From positions 1 through 24,292 of the IMG/VR virus record IMGVR_UViG_3300025168_000648: a stretch of 24,292 bases of DNA; one strand, 5' to 3'. Both the position numbers and the translations under genes were made by a program. Below are positions 5,701 through 22,514 of the stretch, in pieces. Source of the stretch: a virus. Each line of letters opens with the position of its first letter. The first letter of the stretch is position 1. Under the pieces are notes generated by a model, which was not told the DNA's origin, ran no database searches, and saw nothing but the letters and a program-made list of their open reading frames with translations.

Positions 5701-8700
5701 TTTTAAATTTCTTTCAAAGTTTTTAGCAAAGATTTTGTATGCTTCATTAGTTAATCTACTATCACTAGGTTTACCGTTAATTTTGTCTGCAATAGCTTTT
5801 AGATGATTTGACATTAATCCTTTTAATGCATCTCTAACTACTAATTTTTTAACAGCACCATCTAACTTAACAAATGCATTATAAAAATCTGGATTAATTT
5901 TTTCTCTAGCACCAGCATCTCTAAATATTTGTAATACTGTTTCTGGTGTAATTTCTAATTTTTCTAAATCTACTTTAACTTCACCTTCTTTTTCTTTAGC
6001 CTCTTTTATAGCGGCTTTTTTCATTCCCTCTATTTCTTTTGCACTAAAAGGTTTTGCACCTTCATTTTTACCGTCAATCCATTTGTTCATATAACCTTTT
6101 AAAGTAGCTATTGAACCTAATATGTTTCCTCTACTTAAAGTACCGTTAGGTAAATAATCAATTAGATGACCCAATTCATGCGCAAACGTCATCATAAATT
6201 GTTCTGGGTTTTTTTGTAATGCTTCGTTTATAACTATTCTAGGTGATTTTTTTCCTTTAAACTGAAAATAACCATTTAAACCTTCTGGTAAATTTTTAAG
6301 TTCTGGTGATTTTTTAACAAATACTTTGTATAATTCTACAAGATCAATCATGTCTAACCCTCTTGATGAGTTAAACAATCCTTTCCATGCTGCTGCATTA
6401 GTAGAATAATCTGCTGGTAAATTTTTTGTTGATGTAAATATATCGTTAGGTATTCCCCAGTTATCACCACTTTTACTATTATTTAATTTATCATAAAATA
6501 CACCTTCTTTTTCTTTAAAGTTTTCAAAGTAATTATTTGCTTGTGCATTAATTTCGCCATTTTGTATTTTTTCTGGTTTTATTGTAGCTAAAATTTTATT
6601 AGTTTCTGGATGTAAAAATAGTATAGGGCTATCTTTACCTGCACCCATAACTTGAGCAGTTTTAACTTGACCATTTTCTGTAAATTTAATTAGTTGTTCA
6701 TAAGCTGATCTATTAATTGCTACATTTTCATTACCAACTCTAACAATTAAAGTAGCTACTTCAAACCTAGATTTACCACCTGCTTCTAATGCAAATAATA
6801 TTTCTGCTTTTTTATTTCTACTTGATATTTGACTTCTTTCATTATTAATAAAATCTTTAGCATTTTTGTATTCTGTTTTTTTAGTTTGATTTTTATTAAA
6901 CAGTTTAGTTAGTTCTGGGTAAAATTTACTTTGGATTGTAATACTTTCATTAGCAATAGTTTTACCATCTAATGTAACCACTTTAGTAGATGATCCAGTT
7001 TCTCTTACAACTGCTTCTGGTGAAGATTTAAAATTAGTTTCTTTAAATACTCCATCTACATCTTTTACTAACTCAACTATATCTGCTGCAAATTCACCGT
7101 TTTCTTTTCTTTCTTTAAATGAATTATCTTTAGCAATTTTTATAGATAGTTTATCACCTTCTACTATTACTTCTATTGGTTTAATTGGTGCTTTTCTTAC
7201 TTGACTTTCTAATACGGGAATTGTTGAACCATTAGCTTTTTCAACAATAATTACTTGTTCTGAACCTATTGTTTCTTTACCTTTTACTTTAGCAACTTCT
7301 GTTGAAGATGTAGATATATTTACAATTTCATTATTTTTATATTTTGGTGGTGGTAATAATTTAATATCAGCTTGTTTTTCTAATCCTTTAATAACAGTTT
7401 CTGCACCTTGTTTATAAACAGATGGTATTTCACCGTTTTCTATTGCAACTCTTATACTAATATCACTTTCCATGTCTTTAATAACATCTCTAGGGTGTCT
7501 TGAGTATTGAGTATAAATTTCTTTAAACGTACTCATACCTCTTATTGATCCGTGTATTCCAAAAACCAAGACCGTAGCATGAGCAAAATCTTTTAAAGTA
7601 GGTACGTGGCCTTCCATAGCTGCCCCTAGAGTAGTCATAACAGTTATTTCTGATGCTAATCTAGCTGTTGTACTTCCTGTAACTGCTTTTACTTTAGCAC
7701 CAACACCAAATGTAGCACCACCAATAACTGCTGCTTTACCAGCAACTACTGCTGTTTTTTTATCCATGTAATGACTTAAAAATTCTGGAAATGATCCAAC
7801 ATAATTATCTTCTATTGCTCTCATGTATGCTGATCTCATAACTTCTGGTAATGCAAAACCACCAGCACCACATATAACAGGTGTAGCAGGTGCAGAAGTA
7901 CCTAAACTACCAACTAATGCTGTTCCTGCTGCAGCAAAACAACCTGCTGCCATATAAGGTAAATCATTGACTAATGTTGCAGCAGCCGAAATAATATCTT
8001 TATCAAATCTTTGATCTTGATACATAAATACTTTTTGTATTGCTTCATATGGATCAGCATTTGGGTCATTAATAAATATTTGGTAATATCTATCCATTAC
8101 ACCATTTACAGATTGTTCATATCCATTTGTAAATACGTTGTAATAACCTTTACCACCAAAAGCATTTAATAATTTATCTCCTGCGTTAGCGGGTAATTTT
8201 TCTAATGCTTTAGTAACTATATTATCGTTACCCCAATAAGCTAATTGTGCTGTTTGATATTCATAATTATCAGTACCCCATTTAGAAAAATATTTATCAG
8301 TTCTATCTTTTAATGCTTCATTATCTACAAGTCTAAATTCTTGACCATCACCTGCTTGTATATCTGGTACTTTTTCGTAATCAGCATGATGATATTTTAT
8401 GTATAATTCTTTCATTGCATCAACATCACCGTCAGCAATTGCTTTTAATAAAGCATCTGAACCAGCACGATTAAATTTTGTACTTGCTGGCATTTCTAAA
8501 AAGTTAGCTAATGCTAATGCTTTTTGTTCATCTGGTGATAATCTTGTAGGGTCTTGGTGTACCAATGCATCTTGAACCCAATTAGGTAATTGATAATTAG
8601 GGTTCATTCTAGTCATAATATTGTTAAATCTGTTTATTGCAGTTCTAAAACCAGATTTTCTAAATTGAAATAAACCTGCTGCACTACCATCTGCATTATA

Positions 8701-11964: not shown

Positions 11965-14184
11965 TTAATCACTTGTTACTAATGTTCCTGTTATTCCTAA
12001 AATAGTCATAGGTAATGGTTGTTCTTGTTTTATAATTATTTGTCCATCTCTATCCCATCCTAAATTAATTACTCTTTTATCTCCAGTAAATTCTTTAATA
12101 TTTTGACCCATTGGAGTAGATGATGTTCTAAATGGTAATTGATCTCCATTTATATTAATACCAACTGTTTCATGTAATCTTACCATAACTTCATTATATC
12201 TTTTTTTTCTACCTTGTGCAGTACCAGCAGCAGCACCAGCTTCTACTCGCATAGTTTTTAATTGTGATACAAAACCAAGACCAACTTCTAAAGATTTAAA
12301 ACCTGTATTTGGTGATAAACTAACAGATATTTGTCCACTTGATACTGTCTGGTTAGGATATACAGCATCACCAATAAGTATTTGTACACTTTCACCTTCT
12401 AAATGATTTAATCCTGTTATTGTTGTACTACTAGCATTTACAGTTGTAGATAAAGAACTATCCATATTTACAGTTTTATCTAAATATTCAACATATTTTA
12501 CTATGCTACCATTTACTTTTCTTTCAACAATAATCCATGTTTGGTTTTCTAATTCTTCTGAAATAGTACAAATAGATTTAACTTTAGCTTGTGATTGTAT
12601 GCTTTGTGTACCAACACCAGCACTTATTTGTATTACAGTTCTATCTTTTGCTTGTTGATATGTTTCTGCAAATTCAATGTTGTTAGCATCTTTTGCTATA
12701 ACATGATAAAAACTATTATCTTGTAAACCACCAATTTTAGTACCACCATTTGAACTATATAAAACTTTATCACCTGTAACAAAACCATGATTAGATATTG
12801 TAATAAAACCATTAAAGAGAGAATCACTTGTTTTAGATGTTACAGCAGTTGCGGCATTAAAAGTTTGTTTAAAAGAACCACCAATAATATGTCTATGCCA
12901 AGCAATAACATCTTCTTCTCTTTGATATGTCATACCTAATAAAGTACCATCTTCTCTTACTGCCCAATAAATACTTTCTGGTTCTTGTGCATAATCAACA
13001 TCAACAATTCCATTACCTGTAATATGTTCAGCAAGTAATGTCATGTCTGGTGCAAGGTATGCATCATCTTCAAATCTGTAAGAAAATTCTCTAATTTTTT
13101 TTCTTTGTCTTTGTAAAAATAATACAGCGTTACCAATTTGAATAGGTTGTGTTGTATAACCGCCATAAGTAGTTTGTTGTGTAATTTGTACGTTATCGGG
13201 TTGTAAAGGCTCACCAGCAGGTTTTCCAACTTTAAATTCACCACCAGCAGTACCTACAATTAAATCTCTAGCGGGTGCTAACCATCTTATAGTGTTTACT
13301 TTGTTAGCAGCAATAGTATAAATAAATGCATCTGCAGGATCACCTGCACCTGTATCAAATTTTTCATAAAAACCACTTTCAGATGCCCATATAGTTTGTG
13401 GATAAAATGTACTACCACCAAATACTAATCTTTGTTCAAAAAATGAAACTGTTTTAGGGTATCCTTTTGCAGAACACCATGCACCTAAATACCAATCAGC
13501 ATTAGCACTTGTATTTGCAAAATCTGTAGTAGTTGTTGCTGATACTGATGTAGTGGAACTAAATCCAGTAATTTTAGCATGACCATCTCCTATTCTAACT
13601 AATCTTCCTACATCTGTTGAAACAAACGTACCTGTTGATGATGTAATAGTTATACTACCAGATGTACCACTAGGTGTCATAGTTGTTGATGAAGTATTTT
13701 TATCTAAATATGGGCCATTTTTAAAATCTACTGTTGCAAGTGTCCAGCTAGTATGACCTAATCTTGATAATTTTTGTACGGGTAAACTTTCATGTACAAT
13801 ATACATAACGTCTGCTGATTGTGTAAATTGTATTTCATATAATTTATCTTCTGTAATATTTGTAGATATTTCATATGGAGAACCACTAGAAACTATTTGA
13901 CCATCATCTTTATAAAATCTAATATATTGATGTCCAAATTCTAATACATATGATTGTTCAACATTAAATTCAAAAGGAATTAATCTAGTTACTTTAGAAC
14001 TATCCTTAACTGGTGCTACATATCTAGTACCATATCTTCTTGATGCACCGCCTTGTGGAAATACTGTCATATTTTCCATTATCTCAACGCCATTATTGTA
14101 TTTTTTAAAATCAATTTGACCTGCAAGTTTTGGTGTTAATTCACCAGCAGTAAAATTTGTTTGAAAAGGATGTACTCTAGCCAT
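11965..14184 (-). CDS. Tail tubular protein B (T7 gp12-like, tail nozzle)
   Basis: The 739-aa product has the hallmark opening of this family: 'TNFTAGELTPKLAGQIDF' at residues 9-26, then 'FPQGGASRRYGTRYVAPV' near 41-58. The rest is beta-rich, with repeated WxA and surface-loop segments, and ends in 'GDKRVINLGWDRDGQIIIKQ' and a short hydrophobic tail. T7 gp12 is 794 aa, so the length fits. It forms the hexameric nozzle below the gatekeeper and carries fibre attachment points. The ATG shares one base with the TAA of the gp11-like gene (TAATG at 14184), so the two tail tube proteins are translation-coupled. I consider this call secure. Confidence 0.93.
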   Translation of the reverse strand: MARVHPFQTNFTAGELTPKLAGQIDFKKYNNGVEIMENMTVFPQGGASRRYGTRYVAPVKDSSKVTRLIPFEFNVEQSYVLEFGHQYIRFYKDDGQIVSSGSPYEISTNITEDKLYEIQFTQSADVMYIVHESLPVQKLSRLGHTSWTLATVDFKNGPYLDKNTSSTTMTPSGTSGSITITSSTGTFVSTDVGRLVRIGDGHAKITGFSSTTSVSATTTTDFANTSANADWYLGAWCSAKGYPKTVSFFEQRLVFGGSTFYPQTIWASESGFYEKFDTGAGDPADAFIYTIAANKVNTIRWLAPARDLIVGTAGGEFKVGKPAGEPLQPDNVQITQQTTYGGYTTQPIQIGNAVLFLQRQRKKIREFSYRFEDDAYLAPDMTLLAEHITGNGIVDVDYAQEPESIYWAVREDGTLLGMTYQREEDVIAWHRHIIGGSFKQTFNAATAVTSKTSDSLFNGFITISNHGFVTGDKVLYSSNGGTKIGGLQDNSFYHVIAKDANNIEFAETYQQAKDRTVIQISAGVGTQSIQSQAKVKSICTISEELENQTWIIVERKVNGSIVKYVEYLDKTVNMDSSLSTTVNASSTTITGLNHLEGESVQILIGDAVYPNQTVSSGQISVSLSPNTGFKSLEVGLGFVSQLKTMRVEAGAAAGTAQGRKKRYNEVMVRLHETVGININGDQLPFRTSSTPMGQNIKEFTGDKRVINLGWDRDGQIIIKQEQPLPMTILGITGTLVTSD

Positions 14185-19663: not shown

Positions 19664-21085
19664 TTAATTAAATATATTAAACTCATGTTCTGATTGCACT
19701 TGTAATCTTTCATACGATTTTGTTCTAGCTTTTCTTAACGACATAACTGCATATCTCATTGCAGATATTACGTCATCATTAGCTGGTACAATCTTACCAT
19801 CTTTTCTATGATACATACGCAATTCTTCTAGTAGTTTACCTTGATTTTTAAAAATTTTCAACCTTTGTGTTTTAAATCTAGTATATATTTCTTGAACACC
19901 TGCTTCTACAGAGTTACCTCCAGAACCTTCTTTTTGTCCATTTGCAGGTGCATTACTAAAATGTTCTCTACTCATGTTTACACCTTCTTCTTTGTATTGT
20001 TGTGTTAGACTTTTTCCAGACCCTTTATCAGCTTGCCTACCATCCATAGGCCAAATTACAGGAATATGTTTACCTCTCATTTTTATAGCAGATGCATGAA
20101 TAGGTACTGCTTCTTGCCTCATAGAATAACAATCATAAACATAAGCTGTATCTGTATCTCTATCCCAAGCAATCCATACTGCGGCTGTTGGGTGATCCCA
20201 ACCAAAATCCAGCCCACAAATTTTTGGCCAATGATCTGGTAATTCAATTTCTTTACATACAATTTCTTCTTCTGCTACAGGAAATACTAAACCAGTACCT
20301 AATTGTGGTATTCCACGTTCTCTCATTTTTCTTTCGTGTGGCGGTAATGCGGCTAAAATTTGATCTCTAACTTCTTTTGTCATATGAGGTGCATCATCCC
20401 ATCCTGCTGTTATTAATGCTTGGCCTGCTCTTAAATTATTTACAAATTGTGCAACTGTTTGTGTCATACCGCTTTCTGGTGTAAACGTCATATATACTAC
20501 ACCACCTTTATCGGCTGTCCGTGTTAGTGATTGAGTATATATTGGAGTAGGTGGTTCTTCATCTAACCAGATCACATCTACACTTTCACCCATCCATTTT
20601 TCTTTACCCATATCATAAGATTTAAAACCTAACCTAGAATGGCCTCCAGAAACGTGTTTTATAATAACAGAGTTTAATGCGTTAGGTACGCCAGCTTTTC
20701 TAATAGTTTCTACTATGTATTTTAAAGGTATTGAACCTGTGCCTTTAGCAGACGGGTCATCTGGTTGACCGATAAGTTCTTTTTGGCAAACATCCCTAGT
20801 GGTTTCGTTAGAAACACCCCCAGCCCAAGCACGAATTGGTCTGTTAAACCGTTTACCTTCCCACCACGTTGGGTATAGACCCGTCACATGGTACGCCATT
20901 TCCATAGCCCCACTAAAAGACTTACCGATCCTATTTCCAGCCATAAGCAATCTTTGTTGCGCTTTTGCATTATGGAATTTCATTTGGTATTTGTATGGTT
21001 TATATTCACTCATACGATTAGTAGCTTTTCTTTGCTCTAATATTTTGGCTATCTTAACAGCTTGTTCTAGGTCGTCACTTGTCAT
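19664..21085 (-). CDS. terL: Terminase large subunit (packaging ATPase-nuclease)
   Basis: This 473-aa protein carries the full terminase motif set. The Walker A variant is AGNRIGKS at residues 49-56. Walker B is VIWLDEE at 171-177, with the catalytic acid pair D176/E177. The coupling motif 'VYMTFTPESG' lies near 197-206. The C-terminal RNase H-fold nuclease has acidic residues D293 and D297 in 'GLDFGWDHPT', D348 in 'WPMDG', and the D437/D438 pair in 'ANDDVISAMRY'. It is a little shorter than T7 gp19 (586 aa). It pumps genomic DNA through the portal and cuts it. Its start overlaps the end of the 75-aa gene by 11 bases. Unusually, the small subunit is not adjacent but separated by that gene and a 364-bp gap. 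Confidence 0.96.
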   Translation of the reverse strand: MTSDDLEQAVKIAKILEQRKATNRMSEYKPYKYQMKFHNAKAQQRLLMAGNRIGKSFSGAMEMAYHVTGLYPTWWEGKRFNRPIRAWAGGVSNETTRDVCQKELIGQPDDPSAKGTGSIPLKYIVETIRKAGVPNALNSVIIKHVSGGHSRLGFKSYDMGKEKWMGESVDVIWLDEEPPTPIYTQSLTRTADKGGVVYMTFTPESGMTQTVAQFVNNLRAGQALITAGWDDAPHMTKEVRDQILAALPPHERKMRERGIPQLGTGLVFPVAEEEIVCKEIELPDHWPKICGLDFGWDHPTAAVWIAWDRDTDTAYVYDCYSMRQEAVPIHASAIKMRGKHIPVIWPMDGRQADKGSGKSLTQQYKEEGVNMSREHFSNAPANGQKEGSGGNSVEAGVQEIYTRFKTQRLKIFKNQGKLLEELRMYHRKDGKIVPANDDVISAMRYAVMSLRKARTKSYERLQVQSEHEFNIFN

Positions 21086-21302
21086 TTTTTATAATATATT
21101 TTCTACGTATTTTACGTGGTGTTGCTAACTCAAAAATTTCTTCGGTAGTCATATGCGTCTTATCATCAAACCCATAATGTTGTGTAGCAGTATAAGGAAC
21201 TCTATCAACAAGAACATATCTATAGATATACGTACTATTCTGAAAATGCAATAAAGTTTGAGGTTTTTTTATCTGTAGAAATTTACGTGCCATATAAGCC
21301 AT
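21075..21302 (-). CDS. 75-aa unknown protein coupled to large terminase
   Basis: The frame opens at 21302 (a second ATG at 21293 is three codons later) and overlaps the large terminase start by 11 bases. This coupling, and the absence of any other gene in the space, support it. The product is basic at both ends and aromatic in the middle (FQNSTYIYRYVLVDRVPY), with 'MTTEEIFELATPRKIRRKY' near the C-terminus. I recognise no family. No Shine-Dalgarno site precedes either ATG. It could be a terminase partner, since it lies where a small subunit would normally be, but that is speculation. Confidence 0.65.
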   Translation of the reverse strand: MAYMARKFLQIKKPQTLLHFQNSTYIYRYVLVDRVPYTATQHYGFDDKTHMTTEEIFELATPRKIRRKYIIKNDK

Positions 21303-21330
21303 ATAGTTTAAAAATTTTATATATGCAAGC

Positions 21331-21348
21331 TATTAACATAGGTTAATA
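21331..21348. promoter_or_regulatory. Palindrome (operator candidate) upstream of the 75-aa/large terminase genes
   Basis: TATTAAC-ATAG-GTTAATA is a perfect inverted repeat with 7-base arms and a 4-base centre, 29 bases upstream of the 75-aa start. Its core ATTAAC-N4-GTTAAT is shared with 22178-22193. The spacing fits a dimeric helix-turn-helix regulator; the core is close to sites of the CRP/FNR superfamily (for example the PrfA box TTAACANNTGTTAA, one mismatch). A poor promoter-like series (TTAACC then TATATA/TATAAA, minus strand) overlaps it. Confidence 0.5.
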
Positions 21349-21375
21349 TTTAATAATTACCCATGAGTTTGCGGA

Positions 21376-21441
21376 GGCATCCATTGTATAGTGACACAAA
21401 TATCGTTTTGGGGGGGTGGGGGTCAAATCACGGGCATCCAT
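21376..21441 (+). repeat. Direct repeat GGCATCCAT, two copies 57 bp apart
   Basis: The 9-mer GGCATCCAT occurs at 21376-21384 and 21433-21441, flanking the G-run. Shorter CATCC copies follow at 21571-21575 and 21616-21620, all in the same orientation. Such iterated short motifs are typical of binding sites for small terminase or for a replication/regulatory protein; which one is unknown. Confidence 0.45.
21410..21422 (+). other. Homopolymeric G run (G7-T-G5)
   Basis: Twelve of thirteen bases are G, in a genome of about 30% GC. It provides three GGG runs at most, so a four-tract intramolecular quadruplex would need more distant G runs (near 21496-21500 or 21538-21543). It could mark a nicking or packaging-pause site, or alter local duplex structure. 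Its length also makes it prone to sequencing error. Confidence 0.55.
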
Positions 21442-21442
21442 C

Positions 21443-21468
21443 CACACAAAGAAGCCCTTGTTTGTGTG
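21443..21468. other. Hairpin CACACAAA / TTTGTGTG
   Basis: An exact 8-bp inverted repeat with a 10-base loop (GAAGCCCTTG) whose inner AAG/CTT bases can partly pair. The left arm can alternatively pair with the later GT tract (TCCACACA at 21441-21448 with TGTGTGGA at 21556-21563), so two competing folds are possible. No U-rich tail follows on either strand, so it is not a simple terminator. Confidence 0.55.
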
Positions 21469-21666
21469 TGTATGTAGGAGAGGAATAGAACAAAGCAGGG
21501 GTAATATCTACCAGACCGCAGCACTTGAGGCAGCAGCAGGGGGAAGGCGTGTGTGTGTGTGGACACCGATCATCCAGCCATCTTACGCAGGTAATCAGAG
21601 TGATGAGGCTTGTGTCATCCTTTAGGTGTTATGCTTATGTATGATGAGATATGGAGGAGTAACGAC

Positions 21667-22095
21667 CTAGTTTAAGCTAGACCCGCCATCATTAGGATCA
21701 GTAAGTTTAACGATCTTCATGTTTGATAGTAAGTGATCTAGTTCGGCCTTAAGTTCCTCGTCTGTTTTCTTACCCGTTATATCTTCAAATTTGGTTGTAG
21801 TTTGGTAGCCCGTACGATCTAGCAATGAATTGATTGCACCTAGTTGAACGCTTGGAGTAGTCTTGTCGTTCTCTATCAATTTTTTAAGTTTATCTACCGC
21901 CATTGGTACAGCAGACCCGAGCAGCTTTTTAGTGGCCGCCTCAATTTGGTTTTGTAGTTTGTTTTTAAGTTCGTAGCCTTGCTGTTCAGCAGTCTTTTCA
22001 GAGTATCCCGCCTTGATTGCGGATTGTGTAGCGTTGCCCGTCTGACTAAAGTATTCAACGAACATTTTTTGTTTGTCTGTAAGGGTTTGTGACAT
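21667..22095 (-). CDS. terS: Terminase small subunit
   Basis: The 142-aa product has the classic small-terminase opening 'LTDKQKMFVEYF' (residues 5-16), then 'GNATQSAIKAGYSEKTA' (20-36). This is the helix-turn-helix of the Terminase_2 family that recognises the packaging site. A helical oligomerisation region follows, and an acidic/Gly tail probably contacts the large subunit. The gene is noticeably richer in G and C (about 40-48% in lines I counted) than the other late genes, and together with the adjacent GC-rich gap looks like a separately acquired packaging-initiation module. There is no Shine-Dalgarno site; its promoter places the transcript start about 2-4 bases before the ATG, so it may be translated from a leaderless mRNA. 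Confidence 0.93.
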   Translation of the reverse strand: MSQTLTDKQKMFVEYFSQTGNATQSAIKAGYSEKTAEQQGYELKNKLQNQIEAATKKLLGSAVPMAVDKLKKLIENDKTTPSVQLGAINSLLDRTGYQTTTKFEDITGKKTDEELKAELDHLLSNMKIVKLTDPNDGGSSLN

Positions 22096-22104
22096 ATTTG
22101 CAAC

Positions 22105-22133
22105 ATTATAAACTAAAGTTTTTTTTTATGCAA
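22105..22133 (-). promoter_or_regulatory. Sigma70-type promoter for small terminase
   Basis: On the minus strand TTGCAT (22133-22128) is followed by exactly 17 bases and a perfect TATAAT (22110-22105). The spacer contains a 9-base A tract. Transcription would begin near 22097-22099, just before the terS ATG at 22095. This is the best promoter in the window by consensus match. Confidence 0.72.
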
Positions 22134-22149
22134 ATTGTTATTTTATGGG

Positions 22150-22176
22150 TTGACGGGTTTTATCAAATGAAATAAT
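22150..22176 (+). promoter_or_regulatory. Probable early promoter, rightward
   Basis: TTGACG (22150-22155) is followed after 15 bases by AATAAT (22171-22176); each is a 5/6 match to consensus, though the spacer is shorter than ideal. The expected start near 22183 falls inside the palindrome at 22178-22193. It would drive the DUF3846-like gene and the coupled early genes. Confidence 0.5.
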
Positions 22177-22177
22177 T

Positions 22178-22193
22178 ATTAACTTATGTTAAT
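22178..22193. promoter_or_regulatory. Palindrome (operator candidate) over the early start site
   Basis: ATTAAC-TTAT-GTTAAT is a perfect inverted repeat with 6-base arms. It shares both arms and the 4-base spacing with 21331-21348. It lies between the rightward -10 element and the ribosome site of the first early gene, where a bound protein would block transcription. A repressor or host CRP/FNR-like regulator is plausible; neither gene is seen in the window. Confidence 0.55.
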
Positions 22194-22211: not shown

Positions 22212-22514
22212 ATGGAAACAGTAAGCGTAATTAATAATAACTTTGAAGGCAGATTAACTGTTTATGATGGTGTTGAGCCTACATTAGAGGAGGCTCAAAA
22301 ACACGTTGGCGGTTATGTTGAGAGAATTGATCTTGAAAGTTATGGTTGTTTATTAGTTGATGAGAATGGCAAACTAAAACAAAAAGATGAAAAAGGTCAA
22401 TGGAGGCTTAAACCTATCAATGTTGAGGCTACCAAACTTTATAACAAATTATTTGATGGTGAAATTTTTGGTAATGTTATCCATATTTTGCCAGAAACTA
22501 GGAAGGAGTGGTAA
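22212..22514 (+). CDS. DUF3846-like early protein
   Basis: This 100-aa acidic protein contains 'EAQKHVGGYVERIDL' near residues 27-41, 'GCLLVDENGKL' near 45-55, 'KPINVEATKLYNKL' near 67-80 and 'IFGNVIHI' near 85-92. That is the signature of the DUF3846 family of phage and plasmid proteins (GGyIE..l....LvvnEeGk...pvN..At.ly...iiGd.l). Its function is unknown. It is the first rightward gene, with a strong GGAGAG ribosome site 6 bases before the ATG, and probably one of the earliest proteins made. Its stop overlaps the next ATG (TAATG). Confidence 0.82.
   Translation: METVSVINNNFEGRLTVYDGVEPTLEEAQKHVGGYVERIDLESYGCLLVDENGKLKQKDEKGQWRLKPINVEATKLYNKLFDGEIFGNVIHILPETRKEW

Follow-up and report, generated by a model that had tools for sequence, protein, structure and literature searches.

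The window, that is, the whole 24.3-kb stretch of DNA analysed here, is a fragment of a podophage related to the phages of SAR11 (Pelagibacter). Its late genes run leftward in the order TerS, a 75-aa open reading frame, TerL, portal, major head protein and tail genes, and its early genes run rightward from position 22212. The small terminase subunit TerS (21667–22095, minus strand; Terminase_2, Pfam PF03592, PHROG 51) is separated from the large subunit TerL (19664–21085, minus strand; Terminase_6, Pfam PF03237/PF17289) by a non-coding island at 21349–21666 and by the 75-aa frame (21075–21302, minus strand), which has no assigned function, probably has its true start at 21293, and is the first gene past the predicted genome junction. 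Among named phages the closest is Pelagibacter phage EXVC032P Baldr (TerL 79.6%, TerS 66%), with whose genes those of the window are collinear. The next-closest TerL proteins belong to Vibrio phages of the KIT05 group (55–57%; 57% for KIT05 itself), and those of the PaP3/LUZ24-type Pseudomonas phages stand at about 48% to the window, a relatedness that is expected of phages with short direct terminal repeats (DTRs) of the LUZ24/KIT05 type. A distant nucleotide search among named phages returned only short and weak matches to Bacillus phages. In the Baldr record TerS is present without annotation (OQ414636, 39008–39445, corresponding to L083 19009–19446), the small gene past the junction is likewise unannotated, and the locus tags carry the name of another phage (EXVC031PHodr).

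Positions 21349–21666 constitute the GC-richest non-coding stretch of the window. The preliminary description, made from the letters of the sequence, had put the GC content of the island at about 49%; the computed value is 47.5%, versus 32.0% for the whole window, and no 318-bp segment elsewhere attains the value of the island, the maximum (49.4%) being reached by the segment starting at 21370. The G7-T-G5 run that it pointed out lies at 21410–21422 and is the sole one in the window, paired runs of at least five G (or C) having appeared in 0 of 300 order-1 Markov simulations of the window. Also confined to the island are the only GT tracts with at least four units (21464 and 21549–21561), and the window has exactly the two copies of GGCATCCAT that were described, at 21376 and 21433. 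CATCC was correctly said to occur in one direction only, never in reverse, its copies numbering five rather than four. The 8-bp hairpin exists as well, CACACAAA at 21443 pairing with TTTGTGTG at 21461. The absence of a gene from the island is borne out by the relatives, which carry indels that are not multiples of three; for this reason a 69-aa open frame on the plus strand (21416–21625) was ruled out as a gene.

Conservation among relatives, to which the preliminary description had looked, is found at the level of the DNA, the island being kept as a module in dozens of them. Scans of IMG/VR with TerS and TerL yielded about 160 loci, and even in distant members the interval separating TerS from the next gene contains the same features in the same order. 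Read on the minus strand, i.e., in the sense of the late genes, as are all module sequences given here, these are a CACACACACGC tract, about 160–200 bp (counted from the start of the CACACACACGC tract to ATGG), ACCCCCCAAA, 22 bp, ATGG/C, 37–38 bp and TTAAC; beyond the TTAAC box there follow a dyad, TTAACNNNNGTTAA, and a sigma70-like promoter. The spacer measures 22 bp in 50 of 52 distinct copies of the module, and the two exceptions (21 bp with C7 and 23 bp with C5) leave the total nearly constant; one extra match to the regular expression was discarded as chance. TTAAC is situated 37–38 bp past ATGG in all but two of the listed copies. The spacer is free to vary in sequence and fixed in length, which points to DNA contacts at the two boxes rather than to a constraint on RNA or protein.

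In the window, the right-hand part of the module carries the C5-A-C7 tract (21410–21422, minus strand), the complement of the G-rich run mentioned above. The right half of this tract, ACCCCCC, is the invariant box, as its columns do not change in 19 diverse relatives; the left half is unconserved. The box is followed by the 22-bp spacer between CCCCCCAAA and ATGG (21385–21406, minus strand; the length kept in 50 of 52 copies) and by the right-junction box ATGGATGCCTCCGCAAACTCATGGG (21360–21384, minus strand), in which ATG is invariant among 19 diverse relatives and which aligns with the mapped right edges of the DTRs of KIT05, IME271, BA6, Phriendly, LUZ24 and tf. The C-tract and the ATGG box were also considered as a −35 and a −10 element, a reading that was rejected because the hexamer before GG is too variable, and the 16-base C-tract was discarded as a probe on its own, as it gave many unrelated chance matches.

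The module is exclusively linked to this terminase. All viral contigs with the full module, retrieved by the search with the 22-bp pattern, carry this terminase in the locus, and all high-scoring pattern matches in viral contigs adjoin it. Where a terminase was lacking, no pattern match reached 3 of 3; two such matches with a score of 2 are located in bacterial genome contigs and look like chance. Satellites borrowing the site were also considered, in a module search of bacterial genomes, and rejected, the matches examined being due to chance save for one contig from a metagenome bin, which bears the phage itself. This contig, L442 (NHDJ01000141.1), is binned as Verrucomicrobia TMED56, has the TerS, junction module and TerL of this phage, and is probably a mis-binned phage.

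The dyad TTAACNNNNGTTAA is present in two exact copies, the sole ones in the window, at 21333–21346 and 22179–22192, flanking TerS. The first, a probable operator, lies just outside the predicted repeat and just upstream of the TerL promoter, a sigma70-like TTGCAT-17-TATATG (21300–21328, minus strand) that is predicted from its sequence and its conserved position in relatives and would serve the 75-aa gene and TerL. The second follows closely on the −10 of a probable early promoter (22150–22178). Since copies of the dyad stand at both late and early promoters, a single regulator could turn the early genes off and the late genes on. A further putative late promoter, TTGCAT-17-TATAAT, lies by the TerS start (22105–22133, minus strand). 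Transcription from these two late promoters would begin at, or right beside, the start codon of TerS and that of the 75-aa gene, which suggests that the late mRNAs may be leaderless.

The genome ends of several relatives have been mapped or recorded. The linear record of KIT05 has the same 130 bp at both ends as an exact repeat, those of IME271 and BA6 have exact 115-bp repeats at both ends, and the 105-bp DTR of Phriendly was called from its reads by PhageTerm. The DTR of LUZ24 is 184 bp long; that of tf, whose ends were mapped at the bench, is 186 bp (PMC3517423), and that of Delta, a phage of the same species as PaP3 that was shown to have no cohesive ends, is 182 bp (PMC8540360). In KIT05, IME271 and BA6 the DTR starts on the left, on the late strand, with CTTCCCC followed by CACAC. 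On the right, the distance from the start of the ACCCC box to the DTR edge is 28 bp in each of KIT05, IME271, BA6 and Phriendly and 31 bp in each of LUZ24 and tf; in the pelagiphages the box starts 32 bp before ATGG (33 bp in the window, which has C7). In the window the box lies at the predicted junction upstream of TerL, about 32 bp before ATGG, in agreement with the 28–32 bp to the right cut that are expected of a DTR of the LUZ24/KIT05 type. In addition, GGAGG is found 19–20 bp past the right edge in KIT05, IME271, BA6 and LUZ24 and is missing from tf and Phriendly, and several pelagiphage members (L270, L263 and L272) have it 19 bp past the predicted cut. The pattern ACCCC-N43-46-GGAGG, searched for in a set that left out tf, picks out the recorded right edge of four phages (KIT05, IME271, BA6 and LUZ24) and the corresponding position in three others (JB8, PaP3 and Ph19S9E2); it fails in Phriendly, and it has other, chance-like matches in LUZ24 and PaP3. 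As phages of the same genus are not independent, this evidence comes from about three lineages and not from ten phages.

From the homology of its landmarks to the DTR flanks of KIT05, IME271, BA6, Phriendly, LUZ24 and tf, a DTR of 182 bp and 51% GC is predicted in this phage at 21385–21566, where the assembly holds a single copy of it; the predicted length compares with 182–186 bp in LUZ24-type phages (PMC8540360, PMC3517423). The right cut is predicted between 21385 and 21384, immediately before ATGG. The predicted left end (21546–21566, minus strand) reads GTGTCC and then a CA tract ending in CGCC; in the alignment it corresponds to base 1 of Baldr and to the CTTCCCC and CACAC with which KIT05, IME271 and BA6 start, and it is placed only to about ±5 nt, near 21566. 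The left-end motif, expected about 105–190 bp before the right cut, is weaker than the right-end one: the window has the CA tract and a partial form (GTGTCC) of TTCCCC, and elsewhere the motif is CTTTCAC in Baldr, CTTCCCA in L050 and YTTCCC in the others. The Baldr record starts with CTTTCACGCACACACACACGC, within the island and exactly at the predicted left end, and its ATGG at 195 leads to a predicted repeat of 194 bp. Because this record was deposited as circular and without a repeat, its start could be a coincidence or the choice of a curator, and we treat it as a coincidence worth noting and not as a measurement. In the closest mapped relatives, the Vibrio phages (TerL about 57%), the repeats are shorter (105–130 bp) than the 182–194 bp predicted here.

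Metagenome contigs were also inspected. Their ends do not pile up sharply where the cuts are predicted, and contig-end statistics were set aside as evidence of physical ends, the excess around TerS being only mild and broad. None of the 15 IMG/VR records checked was in the end-repeat class. Genome contigs that are nearly complete continue across the island and have their ends at other places, which is what a repeat assembled as one copy would give; headful packaging would fit this behavior too.

In view of the landmarks shared with the recorded DTR edges of relatives, it is highly probable that the island is the genome-end region of a short-DTR podophage, comprising the terminal repeat and the cut sites of the terminase. 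Most likely, this is a known kind of site in an unusual place, predicted almost to the base, and comparison appears to position it convincingly in a group whose ends are seldom known. The proposal of a cos or pac site in the preliminary description would therefore hold as to the kind of site, one for packaging, since the landmarks flank the mapped terminal repeats of relatives, and would fail as to the two types that it named. According to the DTR model, the terminase would recognize the conserved module on concatemeric DNA, presumably through binding by TerS, and would make two cuts about 182 bp apart. The cut on the side of the CA tract, near 21566, would generate the left end of the packaged DNA, and the cut about 32 bp past the start of the ACCCCCC box, at 21385/21384, would generate the right end. 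As the DNA between the cuts would be present at both ends of each virion genome, it would have to be duplicated during processing, as occurs in T7- and LUZ24-type phages. The linear genome would start with the DTR, the 75-aa gene, TerL, portal and head genes and would finish with TerS and the DTR, TerS being the last gene at the right end, so that the two terminase subunits would be encoded at opposite ends.

Other explanations of the island were weighed. Cos sites produce cohesive single-stranded ends of about 7–20 nt. A site of this type, with staggered nicks, short cohesive ends and no repeat, would suit a GC-rich island beside terS, and for PaP3, a member of the wider family, the original description gave a 20-nt cos end (PMC7672466). 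However, the mapped relatives have repeats of 105–186 bp, Delta, from the very species of PaP3, has a 182-bp DTR in place of cohesive ends (PMC8540360), and PaP3 itself (L282, NC_004466) holds the LUZ24 DTR edges at 837–1090, some 0.84–1.07 kb inside its record and away from the claimed cos, all of which renders a cos site quite improbable. A published study of TerS binding used the cos 20-mer at base 1 of PaP3; the true end of the genome may not lie there, in agreement with the Delta paper (PMC8540360).

Headful packaging, in which one sequence-specific first cut at a pac site is followed by permuted genomes, is very unlikely. The Terminase_6 domains of TerL are of the T4/P22 kind and the assemblies are circularly permuted, but a permuted assembly is equally expected for a DTR, and neither the two separate conserved landmarks, which stand a roughly constant distance apart, nor the two fixed ends of all mapped relatives conform to a single initiation cut. 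A similarly slight probability attaches to the island being a late-promoter control region devoid of any packaging role, whose boxes would bind an activator driving the TerL operon. The module always precedes the operator-like dyad and the sigma70-like promoter, in both gene orders; this view, however, leaves unexplained why the same boxes occur at the DTR edges of Vibrio and Pseudomonas phages. In addition, the distance from the dyad to the −35 differs by 4 bp between clades whereas the box-to-box spacing is rigid, and at the TerS promoter a dyad is present without the module. Since the module abuts the promoter and operator, part of its conservation may be regulatory. Finally, a structured plus-strand RNA, for packaging or otherwise, which the preliminary description had also allowed for, can practically be dismissed, for although the plus strand is G-rich and this phage has one perfect 8-bp hairpin, the hairpin is not kept in the alignment of relatives, in close relatives neither strand folds more stably than its shuffles (z about −0.4 to +2.4; for the plus strand of one more distant member, L036, −2.9), the minus-strand alignment, the only strand so tested, contains no covarying pair, and there is no Rfam match.

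A replication origin at the island is less likely, relatives offering a better candidate in a different stretch rich in repeats. Close relatives have direct repeats such as TATAGCAATGCC in non-coding DNA near their replication genes (L287 at about 13050–13300, which is G001 32050–32300, and L288 at 8120–8400), a candidate replication origin.

The placement of the module relative to the terminase genes bears on the unusual position of the predicted site. In every one of the 94 loci with a recognizable module, TerL lies downstream of it. TerS precedes the module in 69 of these loci, lies between the module and TerL in 10 and beyond TerL in 1, and was not seen in 14. The L068–L081 group apparently has no island between TerS and TerL, and the module is instead found upstream of TerS, about 118 bp before its start. 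This apparent mobility of TerS across the site is unusual. It can be proposed, tentatively and with somewhat less than even confidence, that one ruler, with the ACCCC box 28–32 bp from the cut and read by length and not by sequence, has been retained in SAR11-type podophages as well as in those of Vibrio and Pseudomonas, and that TerS, its presumed reader, has crossed the cut site at least twice. In the clade of the window, one terminase subunit would therefore be encoded at each end of the virion DNA.

SAR11 phages rank with the most abundant viruses of the sea, and most of them are known only as metagenome contigs whose ends are unknown. With a sequence rule for genome ends, such contigs could be oriented, completed and assigned to a packaging class without reads. 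The module would also provide a DNA target, short and testable, for the small terminase of a marine phage, as well as a case of a TerS gene changing sides of its own presumed site.

Among known systems, the repeats of KIT05, IME271, BA6 and Phriendly share with the predicted one a CA-rich left end, a C-tract box and a cut about 28 bp past ACCCC, and the KIT05 group also has a related TerL (55–57%) and the same divergent plan of early and late genes. Unlike the window, this group has repeats of 105–130 bp and carries TerS and lysis genes between the junction and TerL. The LUZ24-type phages (LUZ24, 184 bp; tf, 186 bp; Delta, 182 bp) resemble the window in the length of the repeat and in its location between the early and late gene sets, and LUZ24 and tf also in the ACCCC box 31 bp before the right edge; they differ in lacking the CA tract and in having TerS and TerL on the same side of the junction, and tf possesses a 3′-protruding left end of its own. 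In Baldr, whose record has no annotated terminal repeat, the predicted repeat is longer (194 bp) and extra genes lie between the junction and TerL, but the module is the same, the start of the record coincides with the predicted left end, and, as in the window, TerS is upstream of the junction and TerL downstream of it.
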